Both the position numbers and the translations under genes were made by a program. Positions 9,321 to 62,651 of a stretch of 64,000 nucleotides of DNA are shown here, piece after piece. The notes under the pieces are model-generated. The model was not told where the DNA came from and made no database searches. It worked only from the letters and a program-made list of their open reading frames with translations. Numbering within the stretch: position 1 is the stretch's first letter; each line of letters opens with the position of its first letter. The DNA comes from Polytrichum commune (Eukaryota; Streptophyta; Polytrichopsida; Polytrichales; Polytrichaceae): NCBI GenBank assembly GCA_950295325.1, contig OX485806.1:18476001-18540000 (forward strand), given 5' to 3'.

Positions 9321-9847
9321 ATCTATAATGCCCCGTTTTTAAAATTAATTTTTTTTAGAGAATTATGAATATTTTTAGGATGGCTACATGCTAATTAGAG
9401 CATTTCACTAGTGATGTGTGATGTTCAACTGATGCTTTTCAGCCTCGGGGGGTTCACTCCCTCTTATATTTTGCATACACGTGCGTTCGGGACCTATTTA
9501 TTGGGGGGGGGGGTATGAGCCCAAAATGGTTGCTCATATTTGTTTTATGTTTAGAATTTATTTAGAATTGCATTTGGAGTGTTATTGAAACAATCAAAAG
9601 TATAAAAAGAGTGAGGCTTGGTGTGGTTTATGTTTTAGGCCTTATGCCTATTTTGTGTGGTTAATTAGAAGCTAGTGACATTAGGGAGTGTTTTGGTTAA
9701 GTGAGTAGTGTTTGATGAAGCAAGGGGAAGGGCCTTGGATTTAAATGTTTGATTTAGAACATGTTCTTGTTCGTTTAGGGGGTGAGGGTTTAGTGGATAG
9801 GATAAGGTCCTACTAAGTAGGAGAAGTTTAAGGGGGTTGTGGTTTGG

Positions 9848-9935
9848 GTGCCCTCTCTCCTTCCTTCTTCTTCCTCTCTCTTTTTTCCCTTTTTTTTTCC
9901 TTTTTTTTTCCCTTTTTTTTTAAAAAAAAAAAAAA
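9848..9935. repeat. Polypyrimidine tract followed by poly-A
   Basis: About 70 bases of C and T only, with long T runs, followed by 14 A. Low-complexity DNA inside the nested insert. Confidence 0.8.
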
Positions 9936-9964
9936 ACTTTCTTGTGTGTGTGTTGTGTATTGTC

Positions 9965-10135
9965 GTAGAGAGTAGAGTTGGTTAGAGGGAGCGTAGAGAG
10001 TAGAGCTGGTTAGAGGAAGTGTAGAGAGTAGAGCTGGGATTAGAGGGAAGTTGTGACAATAGCTGGACTAAGGGGTAAGCTGTGACAGCAGCTGGACTGA
10101 GAGGGTAGGCTGCGACAGCAGTTGGACTTAGGGGA
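9965..10135 (+). repeat. Two adjacent short tandem arrays
   Basis: Three units of about 27 bp with core GTAGAGAGTAGAGCTGG are followed by three units of about 30 bp with core GACAGCAGCTGGACT. Both arrays are imperfect. They lie within the nested insert. Confidence 0.75.
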
Positions 10136-10924
10136 GATTAGAATGATGGGTTAGTTATGTCTAGTACCCTAAGTTGAGAAGGATGGGTTAGCTGGGTAGT
10201 TAGCTATCCGTGTAATCGGGTGTGCACTTGTGTGGGGAGTTGATAGGGGGTGTGAAGAGAGCACTTATAGAGAAAAGCGTTTATCAACGCTTGTACTCAT
10301 GATATGGAATACATTGGTGTGACCAAAGGTATGTGTGATGTAATGGGGATGAATGAGGGAGGAAGGATTAAACTAGGACGAATATGAATGTGATCACCAT
10401 GCCCTCACCTGGACTAGGACGCTTAAGGGTGGGCGGTATGGCCTCACAGGGGGGGGGGGGTTATTTACCTTGCAGAAAAGATTATAAGGTGATGGTATTT
10501 TACATGTAAAAAGCCTGAAGATATTATATGTGATGGTATTTTATATGTTAACATATTTCACTATTTTAAAATCCCCTATTTTACATGTACATTTTTTACA
10601 AAATTTATCTACAATGAATATATTGGACCCTATTTTTTATCGCACGTTGTTCTACGATTTTCACCAGTGAACCCCCCAAGTTTTCAGCGCCCCCGGGGGG
10701 GAGGCCTTAATTTAGTTCAAAATTCAAATAATGAGAAATTGGTTTGTAAAGTATACATATGAGATGGATAGTTTTCCTTCTGATAATCTATAATAAATAA
10801 ATAAGGTAGTATGAATTTTGGGGACAGGTAATTGTCCCTTGAGGTCACCCTAGGGTTCTCCCATGAAGAATCTATTTTATCCCAACACACCTTAGATGCC
10901 CTAAAGTTCATCTGTATTCATTTA

Positions 10925-15309: not shown

Positions 15310-15594
15310 CTATTCTACAACCACATACATACCTACCTTAATGAAGTTCCTTGCATGGTCCGTGCTTTTCGAACTTGCTCCCGCAGAAAAAGAAAATAAA
15401 ACATAAAACAAATGAACCTTGATATTAGCTACCAGTATGATGTTGAAGCTCGTTGACCCTGTCTTGTTCAAGAGTTCCCTTGTCCACAACAATGTTTGCT
15501 GCTTATTTTGTTCACAAGCCCCTCCTGCACCAAAATAACTACCCATTGTGATGGTTCTGAATTTTACTATGAGTGCCCCCCCCCCGCCCCCCAA
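15310..15594 (-). other. Conserved exon-like ORF, copy 1
   Basis: The frame is open in all three copies of the block (also 44254-44535 and 63477-63713) despite substitutions and a length-variable G-run at its start. Recognisable parts are CEQNKQQTLLWTRE, LVANIK and STDHARNFIK. The last is followed by a good splice donor, AAG|GTAGGTATG. The part after STDHARNFIK resembles the ORF at 46798-47019, which suggests fragments of an old gene family. No known domain is recognised. Confidence 0.25.
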
Positions 15595-16365: not shown

Positions 16366-17145
16366 CTCAGGGCGATCACACCTACTTACGTTTCATAACC
16401 ATGTGCAATAATGGAATATTTAATGGGGGGCTATTTATGCTCCTCTCAATATTTTTCCCTCCCTATTTGTAGATAAAAAGCTACTTTGACGTATTTCTTA
16501 GTACCCTATATTTATTTTTAATTTTTTAGAGGGGTTAATTTTTGGCACAATCTATTCTATAAATCATACAAATACCAAATAATGGACAAAAAACTATAGC
16601 ATTGCGAAACCGACTATGTGAGCAACAAACGTTCCATACCATTGCAATTATCATTCATTTGGTTTCAATTAGTAATACCAGTCCTAAAGCATTCAAAGTA
16701 CCATTCATAACACAACCAATAGCACTTGGATACTAGTTAAAGGGTCCCACATGTTCAATGTCCTTACAAAACTCAACGGCCGTTGAGGAGTGCCAGCACA
16801 TTCCTTCTCCCAAAAAATTCCCACAACGTTTCCCTCCATACTAACGCGCTTGATTCAAAGTTGAATAGACACTACACACTTCTTTATCCAGGCAATCAAA
16901 CTCATAATTATTCTACTCATCCTACTACACACTTTTAGGAGGATCCTATGTCTATGACCATGTTTTTTTTTTTCATACTGATTACTATTACGAACCCTAT
17001 TGTACATATAATCATGTAGAGGACAAATTTCCAATGCTATGGTTGATCTAACGAAATTGAAAATTTCACCCTAAACAAAAATAAATTGACCCCCTTTTTT
17101 TTATCTCATGTAGTTTTCTAAAGTTCCAATAGTCACCTCCCCGAG
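16366..17145. mobile_element. G-tract TIR element, family 3, copy 1
   Basis: The ends are CTCAGGGCGATCACACC and, from the other side, CTCGGGGAGGTGACTA. The 8-bp duplication TGGAATAT/TGAAATAT lies at 16358-16365 and 17146-17153. The element is present at the same site in copy 2 (45307-46082), so it was there before the duplication. A related element lies inverted at 24851-26329. No ORF of note. Confidence 0.75.
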
Positions 17146-18979: not shown

Positions 18980-19526
18980 CTCGGGGGGTTCACTCCCTTT
19001 TTATATTTTGCATACACGTGCGTTCGGGACCTATTTATTGGGAGGGTTATTTACCTTGCAGAAAAACTTATAAGGTGATGGTATTTTACATGTAAAAAGC
19101 CTGAAAATATTATATGTGATGGTATTTTCCATGTAAACATGTTTCATTATTTTAAAATTTCCTATTTTACATGTACATTTTTATAAAATTTATCTACAAT
19201 GAATATAGTGGACCCTAATCACTATATTCGTTAATTTGGGACTTTTTCGGCATTTTGAGACAGTTACAAATATGAGAACATGAATAAAATCACACAGATA
19301 TTGGAGAATGTTGTAAGATGCAAATACATTGAAGCGGGTGTTCATATCAAGAACCCAATTAAGAACTCATATCAAGATAGTTTAGGTAGGACAACCCAAA
19401 CATTATACCATGTTGTTGTGGTCCATATATTAATTTGAGAGAAGAGAAAGTCTCAAATTAACGAATATAGTGATCCTATATTTTATCGCACGTTGTTCTA
19501 CGATTTTCGCCAGTGAACCCCCCAAG
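18980..19526. mobile_element. G-tract TIR element, family 1
   Basis: The ends are CTCGGGGGGTTCACT and, from the other side, CTTGGGGGGTTCACT. The target duplication GTTTTTTA/GTTTTCTA lies at 18972-18979 and 19527-19534. The empty site is in copy 2, reading CACCGTTTTCTAAAGG near 47901. It therefore inserted after the 20-kb duplication, or was lost from copy 2. Without the nested MITE the element would be about 286 bp. Confidence 0.88.
19218..19474. mobile_element. 257-bp TIR MITE nested in the G-tract element
   Basis: It begins ATCACTATATTCGTTAATTTG-like and ends in its inverted copy. The 4-bp duplication CCTA lies at 19214-19217 and 19475-19478; related family-1 ends show the uninterrupted CCCTATATTTTATCGC. 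Same length as the copy at 1887-2143. Confidence 0.88.
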
Positions 19527-21218: not shown

Positions 21219-22667
21219 ATGGCGACGATGTCCAATTTGAACAAGCCGCCTTGCGGCATCTTGTTCATAATCACGCTCGTCATGAGCGTCTTGATCCGCG
21301 AGGTACAATTTTTCATGCAAATCTTCAATTCAATATCATTAGCTTTCGTATTGACTTGCTGGAATATTTAAGCAACTTCTATATGTGCTCTTATTATTGC
21401 AAGTCTTGTGTAATATGACAACAATTTTTGCATCTCACAAGGTGAACAAGCTTATAAACGATGACTCATTGAATTATTATATAATTTCAACGTATGACGT
21501 TTATGTTTCCCAATGAGTGTAAGTTTCCAACCTCACAACATAGTAGGATGCATTTTGAATGCTACACTATTTATGATCGAAATATTGTCAACTAAACTAC
21601 ATGACATTTCACTTGTGATTTTGTAGATCTCATGCGGACGACCATATGGTGGCTTCATCAACGAAGTTGCTTCATGCGCAAATGAACCATTTTTCAAGCA
21701 CACCGCCACCATAACGGCAAACATGGCGATGCTTGATGTGTTGGGAAAGATGCATAGTGCAAATTCGGAGAGTGCATTTCACCTTCCAACAACCCTTGGT
21801 CATGGAGTGTCACGAGCAAACTTGGTGGACCATGCTTACAACATGATCGTAGATCCCCGCAAATGCCAAGTGGCTGGCTTGATTTGTGATGAGTTTGTGA
21901 ACATTTATGCCCTCAATGATGTCACCTCTCCTCAAATGAAGACAATCAATGACCTCCAAAGAAATTTCTTTGTAGAGTCGTCCCTCGTCTTGGGATCCGA
22001 GATGTCTCTCGACCGAAATTTGGGATCTCCTTTCCCAACCCGATCATTCTTGTCGAGTGCCATAGCCGAAGCGTTACCATCGATCAACACTCACAACCTC
22101 GGCAAAATTCTTGAAATATTTGGAATTCGATATGGGACGCCCATGGCGAGCATGATCGAGACAACCGCCCGCTTGTGCGGAGACCCCGCTTTACCGGGAG
22201 AAGAGAGGACATGCGCGGTCTCTTTCGAAGAAATCATGGCGTTTGCTACAACTCACCTCGGCGAGAATGTGCAACTCTCGGCCACAACCGGAGCACCTGT
22301 AGAGTCGGCACATGCTTCAACATCCACCGCGCCAATGAAGGTGATGGGTTACCGCAAGCACTCTCTCGAAGACGGGAAACGTGCAGTCGTGTGTCACGAG
22401 GTAATGTTCCCGAGCGCGATGTATTACTGTCATCGTGTGACGGGCGTCAAAGTCATCGATGTCAACCTTGCAACTGCAACGGATCAGGCAATTCCAAGCA
22501 ACAATCAGATTCAAGCTACCGCAATGTGCCACATGGACACGACTTTGTGGTTGTCACGCCACCCTGCTTTCGCGGCACTGCACATCGCTCGTGGTGACGA
22601 GGCATGCCACTTCTTGTCGGCAGGGGATCTTGTGTTCGTGCAAGCTGCTACAACAAACCACGTGTAA
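21219..22667 (+). CDS. Secreted BURP-domain protein, copy 1
   Basis: Two exons, 21219-21302 and 21627-22667, are joined by a 324-bp phase-0 intron (GAG|GTACAA ... TTTTGTAG|ATC), giving 374 residues. Exon 1 encodes 28 residues with a hydrophobic core, CGILFIITLVMSVLI, a signal peptide. Exon 2 begins with a Cys-containing segment (SCGRPYGG). The BURP domain runs from about residue 142 (FFVESSL) to 366. Its four CH pairs are at 284-285, 296-297, 329-330 and 355-356, spaced X10, X31 and X24; the middle gap is longer than the usual 23-27. BURP proteins are plant-specific, secreted or wall-associated and often stress- or development-related; their biochemical role is mostly unknown. Residues 29-141 show no repeat motif, so the BURP subfamily cannot be named. 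The frame is intact and promoter motifs are present, so it is probably functional. Confidence 0.92.
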
Positions 22668-24850: not shown

Positions 24851-26329
24851 CTTGGGGAGGCGACTATCGGAATTATAGAATATTACGTGAGATAAAAAAG
24901 ACATGGTCAATTTAATTCGTTTAGGGTAAGATTTATAATTTGGTTACATCTACCATAGCATTGGAAATATGTCCCCTACATGATTAAATGGAAAATGGGG
25001 TGATAAATAATTCCTTCATTTTAGTAATCAGTAGAAAAATAAAATAGGGTCATGGACCTCAAGGCGGGCACTAGCGGTATTCTAAAAACGAAGTGCAATA
25101 AAATATAAGGAATTTAATATTCATTTGAGATAAAAATTTAAAGATTTCCATATAAAATATAAGGGGCGAATTAATGTTAACACCTCTTATAAACAAAAAT
25201 ATCATGCAATATAACATGTTTAAGGGACCACGTTTTGCTTCATCAAAGAAGATGGAGGGCTTAATTTAATTCCATAAAGGTTTCTCTTCATTATGGATAC
25301 TTTGAACTTCATTATGTTTAAACGTTGACACGAAGGGGTATATTTGATGTTTGAAATTCTTTTGCAAATGTTGTACGAACTCTTACTATCCTGCAAATGT
25401 TGGACAATTATGTTTCTGAACACACTCAACTTTAAGGTTGCACTCTACTTGTATTCTCCATTACAATCTTGTTGGTGTAATTCACTTCTACTATGTTTCT
25501 TCTTGCCATACCACACAACAATGCCATCCCATTGCTAAAACGCCAATTCACAATGCAACCCCGCCCCCCTTGGCTAAGAATTAATGGCTATTAAAAATTT
25601 GTAAGAAAAATAGGGTATTTAATATTATATTCATTCTAGATTTCTAATTACCAATAGAGTATTAAAATTTTGAGCTCATTAGATTCTGTCTACTTTAAGG
25701 TTTCCAAATATTTATGCTGGAATAGTTATGGGTTTGACTACTTGGATGAAGAAGTGTGCACTTTTTGTCCACATTTGAATTAAGCGCAGTAGTATGGAGG
25801 GAAATGTCGTGGGATTTTTTAAAGGAAAAGAATGTGCTAGTGCTCCTTAGTGGCCGTTGGGTTTTGTAACAACGTTGAACATGTGGGACCTCACTAGATG
25901 CTTGTTTATTTCAGCTTGTATGTTTTGTTATCTCCATGTTTATTGGTAACCCTTTAACTAGTCTTAAGTGCTAATGGTTGTGTTTTGAATGGTACTTTGA
26001 ATGGTTTGAGATTGGTATTACTAATTGAGACCAAATGAATGACAATTTGAATGGTATGGAATGTTTGTTGCTCACATAGTCGGTTTTGCAATGCTATAAT
26101 ATTCTTTCCATTATTTGGTACTTGTATGATTTATTAAAATAATAATGTGCCAAAAATTAGCCTCTATAAACAATTACAATAAATATAGGGTGCTAGAAAA
26201 TATGTCAAAGTAGTTTTATATTTACAAATAGGGAGGGAAAAAATATTGAGAGGCTCATAAATATTCCCCCATTAAGTACCCCATTATCACATGTGGTTAC
26301 AAAACGTAAGGGCATGTGATCACCCCAAG
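24851..26329. mobile_element. G-tract TIR element, family 3, inverted, with inner insert
   Basis: The ends are CTTGGGGAGGCGACTAT and, from the other side, CTTGGGGTGATCACATG; these match the family-3 ends at 16366-17145 in reverse. The presumed duplication is GCATAGTA/GTGTACTA, three mismatches. The inverted copy of the region (around 56465) lacks the element. About 660 bp between 25058 and 25720 are extra relative to family 3; they begin CTCAAGGCGGGCACTAGCGG, like family-1 ends, but the far boundary is unclear. Confidence 0.65.
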
Positions 26330-26345
26330 GTGTACTACAATACCC

Positions 26346-26870
26346 CTCGGGGGGGGGGGGCAGTGTGTTGGAAAGTTAAGGATATAGGTGCGAACAACCA
26401 CTATTTTATAGGGGGGTATTACTTTGAATTTTTTTTTTTTTCACATGCTATCATTATGTAAATTTCTACTTTGGGTTAATAAAAAAATGGCTTGCATTAC
26501 TTATAATTCCAAATTACCTAGTATTCCATATCCTATAGTACTTTAAAGATGTCCAGTGCCATTTTTGATACCCTATATTACTCTTAAGTCCATTTATAAT
26601 TTTTAGCCCCCATGTTTTTAAAATACCCTATCATTTGTTCGCACGTGTATTGCTACTCCAACCAATGACTACCCCCCCCCCCCGAGATCCAATCGAATAT
26701 TCATAGAAGGTTGCGGAGTTGGAAGTGTACACAATAGAAATGAAACTTAAATGTTTCATATATTTTGAGAACATAATCTATTCCGATTGTAATGCATGTG
26801 TGGCAAAGAGAAGTGTGAACTACTCTTTATTGCTACTACAACCAATGACTGCCCCCCCCCCCCCCCCGAG
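26346..26870. mobile_element. G-tract TIR element, family 2, with captured DNA
   Basis: The ends are CTCGGGG and CCCCGAG with long G or C runs. Exact 8-bp duplications CAATACCC lie at 26338-26345 and 26871-26878. The inverted paralogous region holds the empty site (TAATTCCC context, near 56460). The right terminal segment (ATTGCTACT(C/A)CAACCAATG, C-run, GAG) occurs twice, ending at 26686 and again at 26870. Between them is about 140 bp homologous to 2955-3085. The sister at 39943-40291 has a single right end. Confidence 0.82.
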
Positions 26871-28120
26871 CAATACCCACAAATGTGGAGTCATTCAAGG
26901 TCATCGCATAGGGTGCAAGAGGTAAATTAGGGCATCCATTTCCTTTGGAAGAGGACCACAAATTTGAACATTATATGTTTTCATGAAATAAGCACCATGA
27001 CTTTTAAGGAAGTGCAATTCTTAAGAATAAACATCAAGTACATCACATGCTTCAATTGGATGCATGTCCTTATGATTATAATATTGGAACGTGTCAAATC
27101 TAATGTTACCATTTTTGGAATTGGATAAGCTAATAGACTTAAGGCAATACAAACATCAAATATAAGCTCAAAAAGCTACAAACTACAACAGTTAAAGTAA
27201 CTCAACTTTGAAAGGGAGGGGAGGGGAGCCACATGAGTGCAAGACCGTTTATTGAAAACCCTTGGATGGGAGAACAAATAACTAAATAATTAAATAATTA
27301 AAATAAATTATGACCAAAATGAAGACATGACATGCAAATCATATACTAAATTAAAGTCTCATATTTGCAAACAATTAAGACTTCCCAAAAAAATTTGTCT
27401 CATTTATGTTTATAGGCTTCAATTTTGCAAATGACAAAAGATGACAATAGCAACATGGGGTATAAGGGATGTTTAGGGTATAATAAACTCCTTATAATAT
27501 ATCCTTTAAAGGGGGGGGGGCATAACATTATTAAGTAGTGTGCGTTAGTTCATGTGGACTCTGAGAATTTAAACATGAGATTCCCCAACCTAGTGCAAAT
27601 TCAAACTTAATCTAAGTCTACATACACTAAGTTGGGACATCCCATGGTTATATTCTTAGGGCCCATATAAATGAACGCACATTGCTTTATAATGTTATGG
27701 GGGAGGGGGTTTCCTTATAATGTACCTACCTCTCCCCCAAAATTTATACTAGCATGACACTTCCCTAAATATTTCTACAAAACTAGGTCTAACAAATGCC
27801 CATCACATGTGTATATAGTTTAAAGCCATATTTTGATCAAATGTCCTTTAGTTCATCCACGTCGTACACCATGGACCATGTTCAGTCCCCCCCCCCCGCC
27901 CCTGCGTTTTCTAAACGACCTTCAAACACTCGAGGCAATAATGTTAAAATAAGGCATTTGGGTGTGATGTGGTTACTTTTTCTTAATTGTGCACCTATAT
28001 ATTGAGCAATTTGTGATTAGGTGTTGCACTAGGTACATATAAGGAGGGGGGGGGACACATGTTTGAAAGAGATTGGACTAGGTTACATCCTCAAAATCTT
28101 GGGGGATGCACTCAACATAC

Positions 28121-28955
28121 CTCGGGGGGGGGGGGGGGGGGCACTAGCGAAAAACGTAGGAACTACGTGCGATAAAATATAGGGTCTTGTATAAAAATTT
28201 AGCGTAAAATTTGTAAAATTATTAGATGTAGTATAGGGTGCTCTCGGATTGTGAAACATGATTATATGTAATATAGCATTTGACAAAACATGATTAAATT
28301 ACCTAAGTGGTACATATAAACTAGCATGGAGAAAAAGCGATAGTTTCAAAAATTAAATACTTTGCCACCAAAAAAAAAACCGGCCCCACTTTAGACCTTT
28401 CGGAAATCGCATAAATGAAAGAAAAAAATGCCGGCTAATTGCCTAAATACATTAGGAAATGGGGGCTATCAACTGATAAATTTTGCACTCTCTAGGCCCA
28501 CTCTCGGGTAAAAATTGAAAAATCCGAGCTACCTCCAGAAAGCTCGGCAATTAGCCGTTTCCTCTACAGAACTCCCCGGACTCTGCTCCCGCCCTCTCTC
28601 GCCCCCGCCTCCGTCAACCCTAGTTGGCAGACCTCAACTTGGTGCAAGAGTGGCACTCTGCTTCTCCGGGGCCCTGGAACAATCGGAGGATTCGGCTTCC
28701 AAACAATCGAAAACAATCAAGCAATCACCACCGGAAGCCTGGACATATAAGTAATATAGGGTACCATAAAATCAACCATCCAAGAATTTATAATTACCAA
28801 TAGGGTGCAAATAATCACAACAATTTACCATTATTTCAAAAATTAGCATCCCTTATAATCCTTTCTCATAGGTAAATAGCCCCCATTTTAATAGGTCATT
28901 ATCGCAGGTGTATGCAAAATATACAAGGGATTGCCCCCCCCCCCCCCCCCCCGAG
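28121..28955. mobile_element. G-tract TIR element, family 1, with GC-rich cargo
   Basis: The ends are CTC followed by 18 G, and 19 C followed by GAG. Exact duplications CAACATAC lie at 28113-28120 and 28956-28963. The inverted paralogue at about 55440 has the empty site, CTCAACATACTAGCCCG in complement. The interior carries an unusual GC-rich block at about 28520-28740. No transposase. Confidence 0.88.
28520..28740 (+). other. GC-rich block inside transposon, possible captured exon
   Basis: This block is much richer in C and G than its flanks. One frame is open through it and reads with a Ser/Arg/Pro/Leu-rich start followed by RVALCFSGALEQSEDSASK, the look of an organelle presequence ending in a processing-like region. 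No source gene is recognised. It could be a captured 5' exon of a nuclear gene for an organelle protein, or chance. Confidence 0.3.
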
Positions 28956-29339
28956 CAACATACTAGCCCGTATGGTATCATGTGGGTACCAAAAAATCTT
29001 TGATGAGAGTTTGGCTTCCAAATGTACATATGGGATGGGTATTTGGTGATGAAAAAGATGTATATAGGACTCTTGCATGCACGTGGCTCCCCACTCTCAG
29101 TGAAGAGTGCATCCCAAAGCTTCAATCTTACAAAATACTTTAGACTTAAGAGTTGACAAAATTGGGGAGACTCATGTATTCATTTAAATAACCCACATAC
29201 ATGCACTTTTGATAATCTTAACTAAATGAAGGAAGGTCCCGATATTCAATATAGTTTTTGTTAATGCTTCATCACGGATTTGTTGAATCCACGCAAATTT
29301 GGTTATGTAACTTTATTGAGTGAAATATTGGGTGAGCAT

Positions 29340-39942: not shown

Positions 39943-40291
39943 CTCGGGGGGGGGGGGGGGGGGCAGTGTGTTAAAAAGTTAAGGATATAGGTGCGAACAA
40001 CCACTATTTTATAGGGGGGTATTACTTTCAAATCTTTTTTTTTTTCACATGCTATCATTATGTAAATTTCTACTTTGGCTTAATAGAAAAATGGCTTGCA
40101 TTACTTATGATTCCAAATTACCTATTATTCCATACCCTATAGTACTTTAAAGATGTCCAGTGCCATTTTTGATACCCTATATTACTCTTAAGCCCAATTA
40201 TAATTTTTTGCTCCCATGTTTTTAAAATACCCTATCATTTGTTCGCACGTGTATTGCTACTCCAACCAATGACTACCCCCCCCCCCCAAAG
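39943..40291. mobile_element. G-tract TIR element, family 2
   Basis: It starts CTCGGGG with a long G run, then CAGTGTGTTAAAAAG, and ends CAACCAATGACTA, C run, AAAG. The flanks ACAAACTT and AAAAATTT are a plausible 8-bp duplication with two changes. Copy 1 is empty here (TTTAAAAATTTACATTTTCG, about 11027). Same family as 26346-26870. Confidence 0.72.
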
Positions 40292-45306: not shown

Positions 45307-46082
45307 CTCGGGGCGATCACACCCCCTTACGTTTCATAACCACGTGAAATAATGGGATATTTAATGGGGGCTATTTATGCACCTCTCAATATTTTTTCCC
45401 TCCCTATTTGTAGATAAAAAGCTACTTTAACGTATTTCTTAGCATCCTATATTTATTTTTAATTGTTTAGAGGGGCTAATTTTTGGCACAATCTATTCTA
45501 TAAATCATACAAATACCAAATACTGGACAAAAAAAACTATAGCATTGCGAAACCGACTATGTGAGCAACAAACGTTCCATACCATTGTCATTCATTTGTT
45601 TCCAATTAGTAATACCAATCCTAAACCCTGCAAAGTATCATTCGAAACACGACCAAAAACACTTGGATATTAGTTAAAGGGTCCCACATGTTCAGCGTCC
45701 TTGCAAAACTGAACCGCCATTAAGTTTTGCCAGCACATTCCTTCTCCCAAAAAATTCCCACAACATTTCCCTCCATACTAACGCGCTTGATTCAAAGTTG
45801 AATAGAAACTACACACTTCTTTATCCAGGCAATCAAACTCATAATTATTCTACTCATCCTACTACACACTTTTAGGAGGATCCTATGTCTATGACCATGT
45901 TTTTTTTTTTCATACTGATTACTATTACGAACCCTATTGTACATATAATCATGTAGAGGACAAATTTCCAATGCTATGGTAGATCTAACGAAATTGAAAA
46001 TTTCACCCTAAACAAAAATAAATTGACCCCCTTTTTTTTATCTCATGTAGTTTTCTAAAGTTCCAATAGTCACCTCCCCGAG
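45307..46082. mobile_element. G-tract TIR element, family 3, copy 2
   Basis: The ends are CTCGGGGCGATCACACC and, from the other side, CTCGGGGAGGTGACTA. The duplications TGGAATAT (45299-45306) and TGAAATAT (46083-46090) flank it. Same site as 16366-17145. Confidence 0.75.
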
Positions 46083-49594: not shown

Positions 49595-51043
49595 ATGGCG
49601 ACGATGTCCAATTTGAACAAGCCGCTTTGCGGCATCTTGTTCACAATCACGCTCGTCATGAGCATCTTGTTCCGTGAGGTACAATTTTTCATGCAAATCT
49701 TCAATTCAATATCATAGGCTTTCGTATTGATTTGCTTGAATGTTTAAGCAACTTCTATATGTGCTCTTATTATTGCAAGTCTTGTGTAATATGACAACAA
49801 TATTTGCATCTCACTAGGTGAACAAGCTTATAAACGATGATTCATTGAATTATTATATAATTTCAACGTATGACGTTTATGTTTCCCAATGAGTGTAAGT
49901 TTCCAACCTCACAACATAGTAGGATGCATTTTGAATGCTATGCTATTTGTGATCCAAATATTGTCAACTAAACTACATGACATTTCACTTGTGATTTTGT
50001 AGACCTCATGCGGACGACCATATGGTGGCTTCGTCAACGAAGTTGCTTCATGCGCAAATGAACCATTTTTCAAGCGCACCGCCACCATAACGGCAAACAT
50101 GGCGGTGCTTGATGTGTTGGGAAAGATGCATAGTGCAAATTCGGAGAGTGCATTTCACCTTCCAACAACACTTGGTCATGGAGTGTCACGAGCAAACTTG
50201 GTGGACCATGCTTACAACATGATCGTGGATCCCCGCAAATGCCAAGCGGCCGGCTTGATTTGTGACGAGTTTGTGAACTTTGATGACTTCAATGACGTCA
50301 CCTCTCCTCAAATCGAGACAATTAATGATTTGCAACGAAATTTCTTTGTAGAATCGTCCCTCGTTTTGGGATCCGAGATGTCTCTCGACCGAAATTTGGG
50401 ATCTCCTTTCCCAACCCGATCATTCTTGTCGAGTACCATAGCCAAAGCGTTACCATCGATCGACACTCACAACCTCGGCAAAATTCTTGAAATATTTGGA
50501 ATTCGATATGGGACGCCCATGGCGAGCATGATCGAGACAACTGCCCGCTTGTGTGGAGACCCCGCTTTGCCGGGAGAAGAGAGGACATGCGCGGTCTCTT
50601 TCGAAGAAATCATGGCGTTTGCTACAACTCACCTCGGCGAGAATGTGCAACTCTCGGCCACCACCGGAGCACCTGTAGAGTCGGCACATGCTTCAACATC
50701 CACCGCGCCAATGAAGGTGATGGGTTACCGCAAGCACTCTCTCGAAGACGGGAAACGTGTGGTCGTGTGTCACGAGGTAATGTTCCCGAGTGCGATGTAT
50801 TACTGTCATCGTGTGACGGGCGTCAAAGTCATCGATGTCAGCCTTGCAACTGCAACGGATCAGGCAATTCCAAGCAACAATCAGATTCAAGCTACCGCAA
50901 TGTGCCACATGGACACGACTTTGTGGTTGTCACGCCACCCTGCTTTCGCGGCACTGCACATCGCTCGTGGTGATGAGGCTTGCCACTTCTTGTCGGCAGG
51001 GGACCTTGTGTTCGTGCAAGCTGCTACAACAAACCACGTGTAA
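49595..51043 (+). CDS. Secreted BURP-domain protein, copy 2
   Basis: Exons are 49595-49678 and 50003-51043, with a 324-bp phase-0 intron (GAG|GTACAA ... TTTTGTAG|ACC), 374 residues. The signal peptide core is CGILFTITLVMSILF. All four CH pairs of the BURP domain are conserved with spacing X10-X31-X24. Against copy 1 I count about 13 changes in the last 314 residues. Four are clustered at NFDDFND (NIYALND in copy 1). Copy 2 alone has SSTIAKALPSIDT and GKRVVV, where copies 1 and 3 agree with each other. The frame and promoter are intact, so the gene is probably functional. Confidence 0.92.
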
Positions 51044-54061: not shown

Positions 54062-56821
54062 CACGTGACGTGGCAAGCGATGCTATTTTAAGAAACATTA
54101 TGAATTGTGCCGAGGGTGGGTTTACAGTTTACACTAGGATATGTGAGCCTACTACAATAGGCCACTTGTTTTAGAATTCTTTGAGTCTTTATTAAGTATG
54201 TAACATGTCTCTTCATTTCAGAATGCAAATCTAGGAGTGGTGTACAGTGGAAATTATAGAAGAAAAGTGTTTGTTTTAGACTCACATAGATTAGTACCAT
54301 CTTACTTCACTCATTCATGTATGAAGTGAAAGTCTCACATGTCAAAAACACATTGATTGAAACATTTGAAAAGGTTGATGTGGCACAAGATTAAGTCATC
54401 CTTCAACATGCAAAAGTGTTGAGAATATCACATGGACGTAGGTTTATTTGGTTAGTTTTTTCATGCTCACCCAATATTTTACTCAATAAAGTTACGTAAT
54501 GAAACTTGTGTCAATTCAACAAATCCGTGGTGAGGTACTATCAAAAACTCAATTGAATATTGGACCTCCCTTCATTTAGTTGAGATTATCAAGAGTGCAT
54601 GTATGTGGGTTATTTAAATGAACACATGAGTCTCCCCAATTTTGTTAACTCTTAAGTCTGAAGTATTTTGTATGATTTGAGCTTGGGGGTGCACTCTTCA
54701 TTGAGAGTGGGGAGCCACGTGCATGCATGAGTCTTATATACATCATTTTCACCGGATGAAACTATAAACCGTAAAATAGAAAAATATAAACCATTAATGG
54801 ACAATATTGCCAACAAAGGTTGGAAGATAGACCCACTAATTGTCATCACTGCAGGCGCTAGGGCCGCCACACATATCCCCTCTATGGATAACATTGAAAC
54901 AACATTTAAAACCCCTAAGCAAAGCATCAAGAACACATTTGAGGCAATTAATGTCATCGCTATACAATATGCTATGTCCATAATTCTGCACAAAAGAAGG
55001 ATAGAAAATAACGAGCCAATACCACTTGACACACAACTACCATAAGAACTCCCAAAACACCAGCCAATCAATAAATAAAAGATATCACAATAAACTAATG
55101 GAAGGCTCATGACTCAACATCCACCCCACAAAGTTATAACCTTTGCCCCTACAAGCACTACAACCGCACCAACACATGGCCAAACTTGGTCACCCCAGTT
55201 TCTACAGTGCCCACCCCAAGAGGGGTTAGTAGTCCTGCACCACTGATATTATGTCCAGTGGACATAATATCAAGGGTGGGTTGAATGGGCATTTCAATCA
55301 TGCTGATCCCATCAGGGGTCAGCGTTTCTTCTCTCTACATCATTTTCATGACCATTACCCATCCCCATGTGTATAGTTGTAAGCCAAACTCTCATCAAAT
55401 ATTTTTTTGTATACCCACATGGTACAATACGGGCTAGTATGTTGAGTGCATGCCCCAAGATTTTGAGGATGTAACCTAGTCCAATCTCTTTCAAACATGT
55501 GTTACCCCACCCCCTCCTTACATGGACCTACAACAACACCTAATCACAAGTCACTCAATCAAGAAAAAGTAACCAAATCATACCCAAATGCCTTATTTTA
55601 ACATTTTTGCCTCGAGTGTTTGAAGGTCATCTAGAAGAAGGGGGAGGGGGGTCACTTAACACGGTCCATGGTGTATGACGTGGATGAACAAAAGGGTATT
55701 TGATCAAAATATGGCTATAAACTATATACATATGCGATGGGTATTGTTCGACCTAGTTTTGTAGAAATATTCTAGGGGAGTGTCATGGTAGTATGAATTT
55801 TGGGGTAGAGATAGATGTATTACAAGGAAACCCCCCCCCCCTCCCCATAAGGCTTGTATTATGAGGAGTTTATTACACCCAAACATCCCTTATACCCCAT
55901 GTTGCCATTGTCATCTTCCGTCATTTACAAAATTCAAGCCTATGACCATAAATGAGACAATTTGCTTTGGGAAGTCTTAATTGTTTGCAAATATGAGATT
56001 TTTATTTAGTATATGATTTGTATGTCTTGTCTTCTTTTATGTCATAACTTTTCTTTCTTCTATCCAAGGGTTCTAAATAAAACAGTCATGCACTCATGTA
56101 GCTCCCCCCTTCCCCCCCCCCCCTTTCAAAGTTAAGTTACTTCAACCATTTTAGTTTGCAGCTTTTTGAGCTTATATTTTATGTTTATATTGCCTCAGGT
56201 CTATTAGCTTATCCAATTCCAATAATTAAAATATTTGATTGGACTCATTCCAATTTCATAATCATAAGGACATGTATCTTATTAAAGTACGTGATGTACT
56301 TGATGTTTATTCATAAAAAATGCACATCTTAAAAGTCATGGCACTTATTTTATGAAATCAATTCAAATTTTGGTCCACTTCCAAAGGAAATGGATACCCT
56401 AATTTACCTCGTCGACCATGTGTGATGACCTTGAATGAAATCAAATTTGTGGGAATTACAGTACATGAGTTGAAAGCACCGACTTCATACTCGAGTTCTT
56501 CAAAAAAATTAGATACTTCTTCAGACTCAAAATTGAAGGGCTTCAAAACACCATGATTGTCACATTATTTTGGGGTATGTTCTACCTTGCAACTTGAGTA
56601 CTGGAAACTTCAGGACGTTGCGGGTAGAAGGGGTGTGTGGAATGCGATGGTGTATACAGGAATCACGATGCGATCCGGCATCGTGAGATGAGTTCTTGAT
56701 CACTGAAACATAAGGGAAGTGCAACATCGGAGAGTTCGACAGTTGAAGCACATTAATGCAGTCAATGATCCAGATTTATGTAAAGCATCAATCTCAATTT
56801 GAATTGGACCTCTTCTATCCT
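54062..56821. repeat. Right partner of second inverted repeat, and flank
   Basis: Bases 54300-56460 match 26930-31145 in reverse complement and mostly preserve empty sites for its transposons. Bases 56465-56585 match 24720-24835 in reverse. The stretch 54770-55310 has no counterpart, and no gene is seen in it. Bases 54062-54299 hold nothing recognised. Confidence 0.7.
56580..56821 (+). repeat. Duplicated 3'-flank unit of RPS3A
   Basis: About 240 bp, starting CCTTGCAACTTGAGTACTGG, recurs at 57395-57640 in the same orientation and at 51600-51860 inverted. Here it sits directly upstream of the copied exon 5, replacing intron 4 and everything before it. Confidence 0.75.
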
Positions 56822-58204: not shown

Positions 58205-59653
58205 TTACACGTGGTTTGTTGTAGCAGCTTGCACTAACACAAGATCCCCTGCCGACAAGAAGTGGCACGCCTCGTCACCACGAGCAATGTGCAGTGCTGC
58301 GAAAGCAGGGTGGCGTGACAACCACAAAGTCGTGTCCATGTGGCACATTGCGATAGCTTGAATCTGATTGTTGCTTGGAATTGCCTGATCCGTTGCACTT
58401 GCAAGGCTGACATCGATGACTTTGACGCCCGTCACATGATGACAGTAATACATCGCACTCGGGAACATTACCTCGTGACACACGACCGCACGTTTCCCGT
58501 CTTCAAGAGAGTGCTTGCGGTAACCCATCACCTTCATTGGCGCGGTGGATGTTGAAGCATGTGCCGACTCTACAGGTGCTCCGGTGGTGGCCGAGAGTTG
58601 CACATTCTCGCCGAGGTGAGTTGTAGCAAACGCCATGATTTCTTCGAAAGAGACCGCGCATGTCCTCTCTTCTCCCGGCAAAGCGGGGTCTCCGCACAAG
58701 CGGGCGGTTGTCTCGATCATGCTCGCCATGGGCGTCCCATATCGAATTCCAAATATTTCAAGAATTTTGCCGAGGTTGTGAGTGTTGATCGATGGTAACG
58801 CTTCGGCTATGGCACTCGACAAGAATGATCGGGTTGGGAAAGGAGATCCCAAATTTCGGTCGAGAGACATCTCAGATCCCAAGACGAGGGACGATTTTAC
58901 AAAGAAATTTCGTTGTAAATCGTTGATTGTCTCAATTTGAGGAGAGGTGACGTCATTGAAGTCATCAAAGTTCACAAACTCGTCACAAATCAAGCCAGCC
59001 GCTTGGCATTTGCGGGGATCCACGATCATGTTGTAAGCATGGTCCACCAAATTTTCTTGTGACACTCCATGACCAAGGGTTGTTGGAAGGTGAAATGCAC
59101 TCTCCGAATTTGCACTATGCATCTTTCCCAACACATCAAGCACCGCCATGTTTGCCGTTATGGTGGCGGTGCGCTTGAAAAATGGTTCATTTGCGCATGA
59201 AGCAACTTCGTTGACGAAGCCACCATATGGTCGTCCGCATGAGGTCTACAAAATCACAAGTGAAATGTCATGTAGTTTAGTTGAGAATATTTGGATCACA
59301 AATAGTGTAGCATTCAAAATGCATCCTACTATGTTGTGAGGTTGGAAACTTACACTCCTTGGGAAACATAAACGTCATACGTTGAAATTATATAATAATT
59401 CAATGAGTCATCGTTTATAAGCTTGTTCACCTAGTGAGATGCGAATATTGTTGTCATATTACACAAGACTTGCAATAATAAGAGCACATATAGAAGTTGC
59501 TTAAACATTCAAGCAAGTCAATACAAAAGCCTATGATATTGAATTGAAGATTTGCATGAAAAATTGTACCTCGCAGATCAAGACGCTCACGACGAGCGTG
59601 ATTGTGAACAAGATGCCGCAAGGCGGCTTGTTCAAATTGGACATCGTTGCCAT
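58205..59653 (-). CDS. Secreted BURP-domain protein, copy 3
   Basis: Exons are 59570-59653 and 58205-59245, phase-0 GT-AG intron of 324 bp, 374 residues. The signal peptide core is CGILFTITLVVSVLI. All four CH pairs are present with X10-X31-X24 spacing; the second is followed by His instead of Arg. About 11 changes from copy 2 in the last 314 residues, including GVSQENL, FFVKSS, SLASAT, QAIAM and DLVLVQ. The coding frame is intact, but the upstream CCAAT and TATA motifs are altered, so expression may be reduced or changed. It lies in inverted orientation in the right arm of the large inverted repeat. Confidence 0.9.
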
Positions 59654-62018: not shown

Positions 62019-62651
62019 AATAGGGTTCGTATTAGTAATCAGTAAGAAGAAAAAAAAACATGGTCATAGACATAGGATCCTCCTAAAAGTGTGTAGTAGG
62101 ACGAGTAGAATAATTATGAGTTTGATTGCATGGATAAAGAAGTGTGTAGTTACTATTCAACTTTGAATCAAGCGCGTTAGTATGGAGGGAAATGTTGTGG
62201 GAATTTTTTGGGAGAAGAAATGTGTTGGCACTCCTCAATGGCCGTTGAGTTTTGCAAGGACGTTGAACATGTGGGACCCTTTAACTAGTATCCAAGTGCT
62301 ATTGCTTGTGTTACGAATGGTACTTTGAATGCTTTAGGACTGGAATTACTAATTGAAACCAAATGAATGATAATTTGAATGGTATGGAACGTTTGTTGCT
62401 CACATTGTCGGTTTCGCAATGCTATAGTTTTTTTTCCACTATTTGGTATTTGTACGATTTATAGAATAGATTGTGCCAAAACTTAACCCCTCTAAAGAAT
62501 TACAAATAAATATAGGGTGCTTAAAAACAAGTCAAAGTAGCTTTTTATCTACAAATAGGGAGGGAAAAAATATTGAGAGGTGCATAATGCCCATTAAATA
62601 TTCCATTATTGCACGTGGCTATGAAATGTAAGGGGGTGTGTTCGCCCTGAG
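62019..62651. mobile_element. G-tract TIR element, family 3, truncated copy 3
   Basis: The end CTCAGGGCGAACACACC (minus strand) is kept. The other end is lost in the deletion whose junction is at about 62019. Confidence 0.65.

Follow-up and report, generated by a model that had tools for sequence, protein, structure and literature searches.

Mutator-like elements (MULEs) usually make a target duplication of 9 bp, with 8-11 bp in some of them, and hAT elements prefer targets of the form nTnnnnAn. The ends of plant hAT elements are given as (T/C)AGNGNNG, and earlier as (T/C)A(A/G)NG, in the available part of one study (PMC6027215), while Mutator MITEs, which are non-coding TIR elements, are described as prevalent in plants in an excerpt of another (PMC12550479). 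In the case of P elements, an 8-bp duplication is combined with a two-part end in which the transposase binds a separate internal site, and THAP domains are stated to be absent from plants in the same partial text (PMC7776569).

The window analysed here, a 64-kb stretch of the Polytrichum commune genome (64,000 nucleotides), contains an 835-bp element, E1, whose family is by kind an ordinary non-autonomous TIR transposon with unusual ends and an unusual, variable G tract. MULE MITEs resemble the E1 family as non-coding TIR elements, but they differ from it in the length of the duplication (9 versus 8 bp), and the MULE stretches read carry no E1-type ends. P elements share with it the 8-bp duplication and the two-part end, whereas plants lack THAP domains, as far as the cited part of PMC7776569 goes. 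Neither a MULE nor a P origin is supported by what was found. Plant hAT MITEs are alike in their 8-bp duplication, in being short non-coding elements and in their short G-rich terminal repeat, but the third terminal base of the E1 group, a C or T in all 30 ends tabulated, departs from the consensus in the accessible part of PMC6027215, and no hAT copy with E1-type ends occurs among the loci read.

E1 is best explained, with a probability of about 90%, as a member of a high-copy, young, non-autonomous, MITE-like TIR DNA transposon family that is mobilised in trans by an unseen transposase. Inverted terminal repeats are present, as in a TIR DNA transposon or MITE, and the shared ends, the two-part pattern and the 8-bp duplications of the copies argue for a non-autonomous DNA transposon family; as no autonomous copy was found, we infer both the mobilisation in trans and the enzyme. 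The features of E1 are as follows.

28121..28955, no strand assigned: E1, the element of interest, 835 bp, CTC-G18...C19-GAG, with target duplication CAACATAC twice and an empty site
28113..28120, plus strand: left target duplication CAACATAC of E1
28956..28963, plus strand: right target duplication CAACATAC of E1
28165..28181, plus strand: left subterminal motif ACGTGCGATAAAATATA of E1
55437..55444, minus strand: empty site of E1 in the inverted paralogue, a single CAACATAC and no element

The sequence-only reading had described CTC-G18 and C19-GAG ends between perfect copies of CAACATAC and an inverted paralogue with one copy and no element, and both descriptions are confirmed, at 28113-28963 and at 55437-55444 on the minus strand, respectively. 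The runs themselves are G18 at 28124-28141 and C19 at 28934-28952, and the paralogue reads ...GCACTCAACATACTAGCCCG... across the empty site. When the flanks were compared at lengths 3 to 12, identity peaked at 8 (8/8, against 1/7 at length 7 and 1/9 at length 9), and thus the target duplication of E1 is 8 bp; pairs of random 8-mers from the window match at 8/8 in 9 of 200,000 draws and at 7/8 in 130 of 200,000. The pairs of three other elements of the window, E2, E5 and E4, also peak at length 8, with 8/8, 8/8 and 7/8. Within E1, two ORFs of 80-84 aa gave 0 Pfam families, as did a third that overlaps the end of the element.

Relatives of E1 are found in the same window, which contains segmental copies of one region (A, B and C), the source of further empty sites.

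26346..26870, no strand assigned: E2, 525 bp, G12/C16 ends, target duplication CAATACCC (8/8)
39943..40287, no strand assigned: E3, G18 left end, right GAG lost, two paralogues without E3
18980..19526, no strand assigned: E4, 547 bp, ends CTCGGGGGGTTCACT / CTTGGGGGGTTCACT, target duplication GTTTTTTA/GTTTTCTA (7/8)
9444..10680, no strand assigned: E5, 1237 bp, ends as in E4, target duplication TTTTCAGC (8/8)
45307..46082, no strand assigned: F (B copy), an older element, G4 ends CTCGGGGCGATCAC / CTCGGGGAGGTGACT, target duplication TGGAATAT/TGAAATAT (7/8)
16366..17145, no strand assigned: F (A copy), flanks identical to those of the B copy
62592..62651, minus strand: F (C copy), left end only
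24851..26329, no strand assigned: F2, an older element, 1479 bp, G4 ends CTTGGGGAGGCGACT / CTTGGGGTGATCACA, decayed target duplication GCATAGTA/GTGTACTA (5/8)

The empty sites of E4 in paralogues B and C both carry GTTTTCTA, and one-copy sites, both diverged, are present for E2 in the inverted paralogue near 56457 (TAATTCCC) and for E5 in B (TTTTCACC). Since the A and B copies of F have the same flanks, they represent one insertion that is older than the segmental duplication. E3 matches the core of E2 at 95.8% identity; damage has affected the right end of E3, and the target duplication is unreadable (flanks ACAAACTT / AAAGAAAA). E2 has a second right end at 26686 plus a filler of 135 bp, which shares 96% identity with 3076-2942; both could plausibly stem from repair of a cut in which the template was switched. 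The subterminal motif is missing from the outer right end of E2, the end next to the duplication, which means that either the motif can be dispensed with at one end or this end changed after insertion. Two nested sequences were also seen: an insert in E5 at about 9514-10448, between G11 and G12 runs where E4 has GGGAGGG, and a repeat in E4 at 19203-19475, with a second copy at 1872-2144 and inverted ends ATCACTATATTCG...CGAATATAGTGAT.

The underlying end, as the relatives show it, is C-N-Y-R-GGG..., in most cases with TCACT around base 11-15; E4 and E5 end in CTYGGGGGGTTCACT and F in CTCGGGGCGATCAC or CTCGGGGAGGTGACT, and runs of 3-6 G are present in E4, E5, F and F2 as well as in nine elements from other parts of the genome. 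A terminal repeat made mainly of a G homopolymer, as had been proposed from the sequence, is for this reason rejected as the basic end, and in E1, E2 and E3 the long runs look like variable expansions of a short tract. In 13 aligned ends, a set that excludes the outer right end of E2, a terminal CTYGGGG is combined with a subterminal motif resembling ACRTGNGATAA (8-10 of 10 positions), which starts 26-31 nt past the G run; in the eight of these ends that have short runs the motif lies 33-36 nt from the end. The 30 ends of 15 elements, a table that omits L089, E3 and all copies of E1 other than E1 itself, start with CTCG (12), CACG (7), CTTG (4), CCCG (3), CACA (3) and CTCA (1). All of them have C or T at the third position, and so do 56 of 56 ends from 28 E1-family copies, E1 being counted in both sets.

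The window is rich in homopolymers of this kind, with 21 G/C runs of at least 8, whereas 30 first-order simulations averaged 0.7 and never gave more than 2; nine of them are inside elements and six at element ends. G/C homopolymers in the window differ in length between paralogues, for example at 15576. A foldback element at 27511-27699 lies inside a G run, and the inverted paralogue (55831-55841) keeps the run without the element, so the target repeat of the foldback element may itself consist of G's.

E1 is present in many copies. Searching the assembly to which the window belongs (407,808,757 bases, 64 contigs) gave 1472 first-look candidates, the best 40 of which were scored, and all 40 are 96-100% identical to E1 across roughly 800 bases. 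Of these, 28 were examined, namely eight loci from the search (E1 among them) and 20 that were fetched, and every one has the 8-bp duplication, at 8/8 in 25 and 7/8 in three; four were aligned after a shift of 1 nt at one end or at both, their runs being broken by a base. Identity of the cores to their consensus is 98.1-99.6%. The family has reached a high copy number and spread recently, although the best 40 of 1472 under-represent older copies and bias both age and duplication quality towards young ones. The runs vary from 6 to 21 G and from 7 to 20 C, as read from an assembly that may contain homopolymer errors, and such variation beside near-identical cores suggests slippage.

The duplication is equally regular in the wider group. 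The pattern GGGGNGNTCACTN{16,24}ACGTGNGATAA has 331 matches in the genome and 0 when read backwards. Eight stretches, picked from the listed matches in favour of unusual variants, and two hAT loci were read, and ten further end pairs gave, at the best of small end shifts, 8/8 in eight cases, 7/8 in L088 (after a shift; 6/8 at anchored ends) and 6/8 in L089. Over 42 elements (28 E1 copies and 14 others, without E3 and L089), 35 have a perfect flush repeat of length 8 and none has one of length 6, 7, 9, 10 or 11; the base beyond the 8-bp repeat matches in 5/42 on one side and 7/42 on the other. The proposal that this is a transposon with consistent 8-bp duplications therefore holds, on the strength of the empty sites, the 28 examined copies and the 35 perfect cases. 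The exceptions, which count against this explanation, are E3, with its unreadable flanks, F2 (5/8), L088 at its anchored ends and L089. Chance or slippage alone is ruled out by the exact 8-bp repeats, the empty sites and the copy number.

A longer copy with a transposase, which the sequence-only reading had suggested looking for, did not appear in the part of the loci checked. The longest element of the group (L084, 2254 bp) and another stretch (L086), from each of which five ORFs were scanned, gave only Pfam matches below the cut-off and no transposase, and the end in L086 has no partner end in about 9 kb. Unpaired end matches are those in L033, L042, L052, L084 (1043) and L086, and an earlier profile placed both ends of L033 at 306-652. 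Elements of the group adjoin hAT copies in L030 and L056. Between the pattern ends listed for contig 1 and part of contig 2, no hAT, MULE or DUF659 place was found by eye. The end pattern had 0 matches in the scanned viral-contig and genome-contig collections, and literature searches by end sequence and by words gave no description of the E1 family among the matches listed, as judged by titles or the opening of abstracts.

If the family moves as proposed, a transposase acting in trans, most likely a hAT-like one, would mobilise it by cut-and-paste. This enzyme probably recognises a two-part end made of the C-N-Y-R-GGG block, mostly with TCACT, and the subterminal motif, and it would bind at the motif resembling ACRTGNGATAA. 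Joining to a target cut with an 8-nt stagger would leave the 8-bp duplication, and an originally short G tract may have grown to as many as 21 G by replication slippage.

The nature of the partner can be weighed from the same data. A hAT transposase acting on hAT MITEs with degenerate ends (CAC, CTC or CCC in place of CAG or CAA) has a little less than an even chance of being the partner. The 8-bp duplications throughout are consistent with it, as are the starts of 10 of the 30 ends, which read CAC, one base off the hAT start, and the abundance of hAT domains in the genome: at least 150 matches to the dimerisation domain, those listed being the best of 1060 candidates, and 132 to DUF659, of which 100 score 108 bits or higher, many of these having open frames of around 1080 aa. 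An unpaired related end in L042 reads CAAGGGG and would fit the hAT start, but it has no partner, so its boundary is not fixed. The misfit of CTCGGGG to the hAT start, pointed out from the sequence, extends to the whole group, since none of the 30 tabulated ends agrees with the hAT terminal consensus and the 56 E1-family ends likewise all have C or T in third place; T at position 2 with A at position 7, the preferred hAT target, occurs in only 1 of 40 duplications. For both reasons the family is not filed as hAT. Three hAT families of this genome seem, as judged by eye, to carry ordinary ends and were rejected as partners: an abundant one with CAGAGCCCAAC in most of 30 loci, one with a 420-aa ORF in three copies and an apparent 3' end CAGTGTTGGAC whose boundary is inexact, and a DUF659 one with YAGGGTTGTC on the 5' side of two copies. 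No CNYRGGG pair encloses a hAT domain in 48 neighbourhoods (30 loci read with flanks of 1.5 kb, plus another 18 on the 3' side only), a sample of few families, reaching at most about 1.5 kb and one-sided in 18 cases. As a separate observation, the 3' sides of eight copies of the DUF659 group are mostly 97-98% identical, with one at about 92%, and this group is apparently young.

The departure of the terminus from the hAT consensus, as worded in the available part of PMC6027215, also speaks for a partner from a superfamily that is new to plants or undescribed and makes 8-bp duplications, as does the lack of a transposase with such ends among the hAT and MULE loci sampled; transposase loci were sampled only in part, so that absence of a partner weighs little, and this origin is somewhat unlikely. 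A more specific proposal, that a moss cut-and-paste lineage with C-N-Y-R-GGG ends, a two-part end and 8-bp duplications represents a new transposase superfamily or a deep hAT branch, in which growth of the G tract from 3-6 to 21 was tolerated during continued transposition, must be called unlikely. It is quite improbable that a MULE transposase making 8-bp instead of 9-bp duplications is responsible: MULE domains are present (142 genome matches) and Mutator MITEs are prevalent in plants, according to the excerpt of PMC12550479, but perfect repeats have length 8 in 35 of 42 elements and length 9 in none, and the end profile reaches no better than E 0.38 in four MULE stretches. One MULE pair, L091 (G000:C3:19740981) and L092 (G000:C5:50424175), was rejected as partner with no end-profile match better than E 0.7; the bases directly outside the aligned stretch of L092 happen to be CTCGGGG, which L091 does not have, and there is no subterminal motif there. 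The two are 99.7% identical, with frames of about 465 aa and an aligned part that starts with AGCGCGTATTTTC. The CCCCTTG and CCCCGAG sequences in L067 and L068, which have no subterminal motif, were taken as chance. Finally, G runs could themselves cause insertion, by end-joining or polymerase slippage at G tracts and with no transposase. The window is rich in them, and a further two insertions lie within G runs, but the exact 8-bp repeats, the core of about 790 bp common to many copies and the existence of relatives that make 8-bp repeats too with ends of only 3-6 G leave this cause a very nearly negligible likelihood.

Some genes were also observed in the window, whose DNA has a moss-like character. 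Three similar reading frames (21627-22664, 50003-51040 and 58208-59245) form a segmentally duplicated cluster, and the first of them, the one scanned, matches the BURP domain; the named relatives among its matches are three Ceratodon proteins only, with 43-47% identity. A gene for ribosomal protein eS1 has metagenome proteins as its best matches (94-96%, the best of 7993 candidates scored), and its best named match among these is from the fern Adiantum (90%).

No hAT elements were reported in Physcomitrella by one study, in the part of it available (PMC6027215), and the abundant hAT domains found here contrast with that report. The E1 family indicates a recently active transposase in a plant group whose DNA transposons have been little described. 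A young, high-copy MITE family is a natural test of how far the ends of a transposon can change and still work, and copies that are 98.1-99.6% identical to their consensus, with runs of 6-21, bear on how much change of the end is tolerated.
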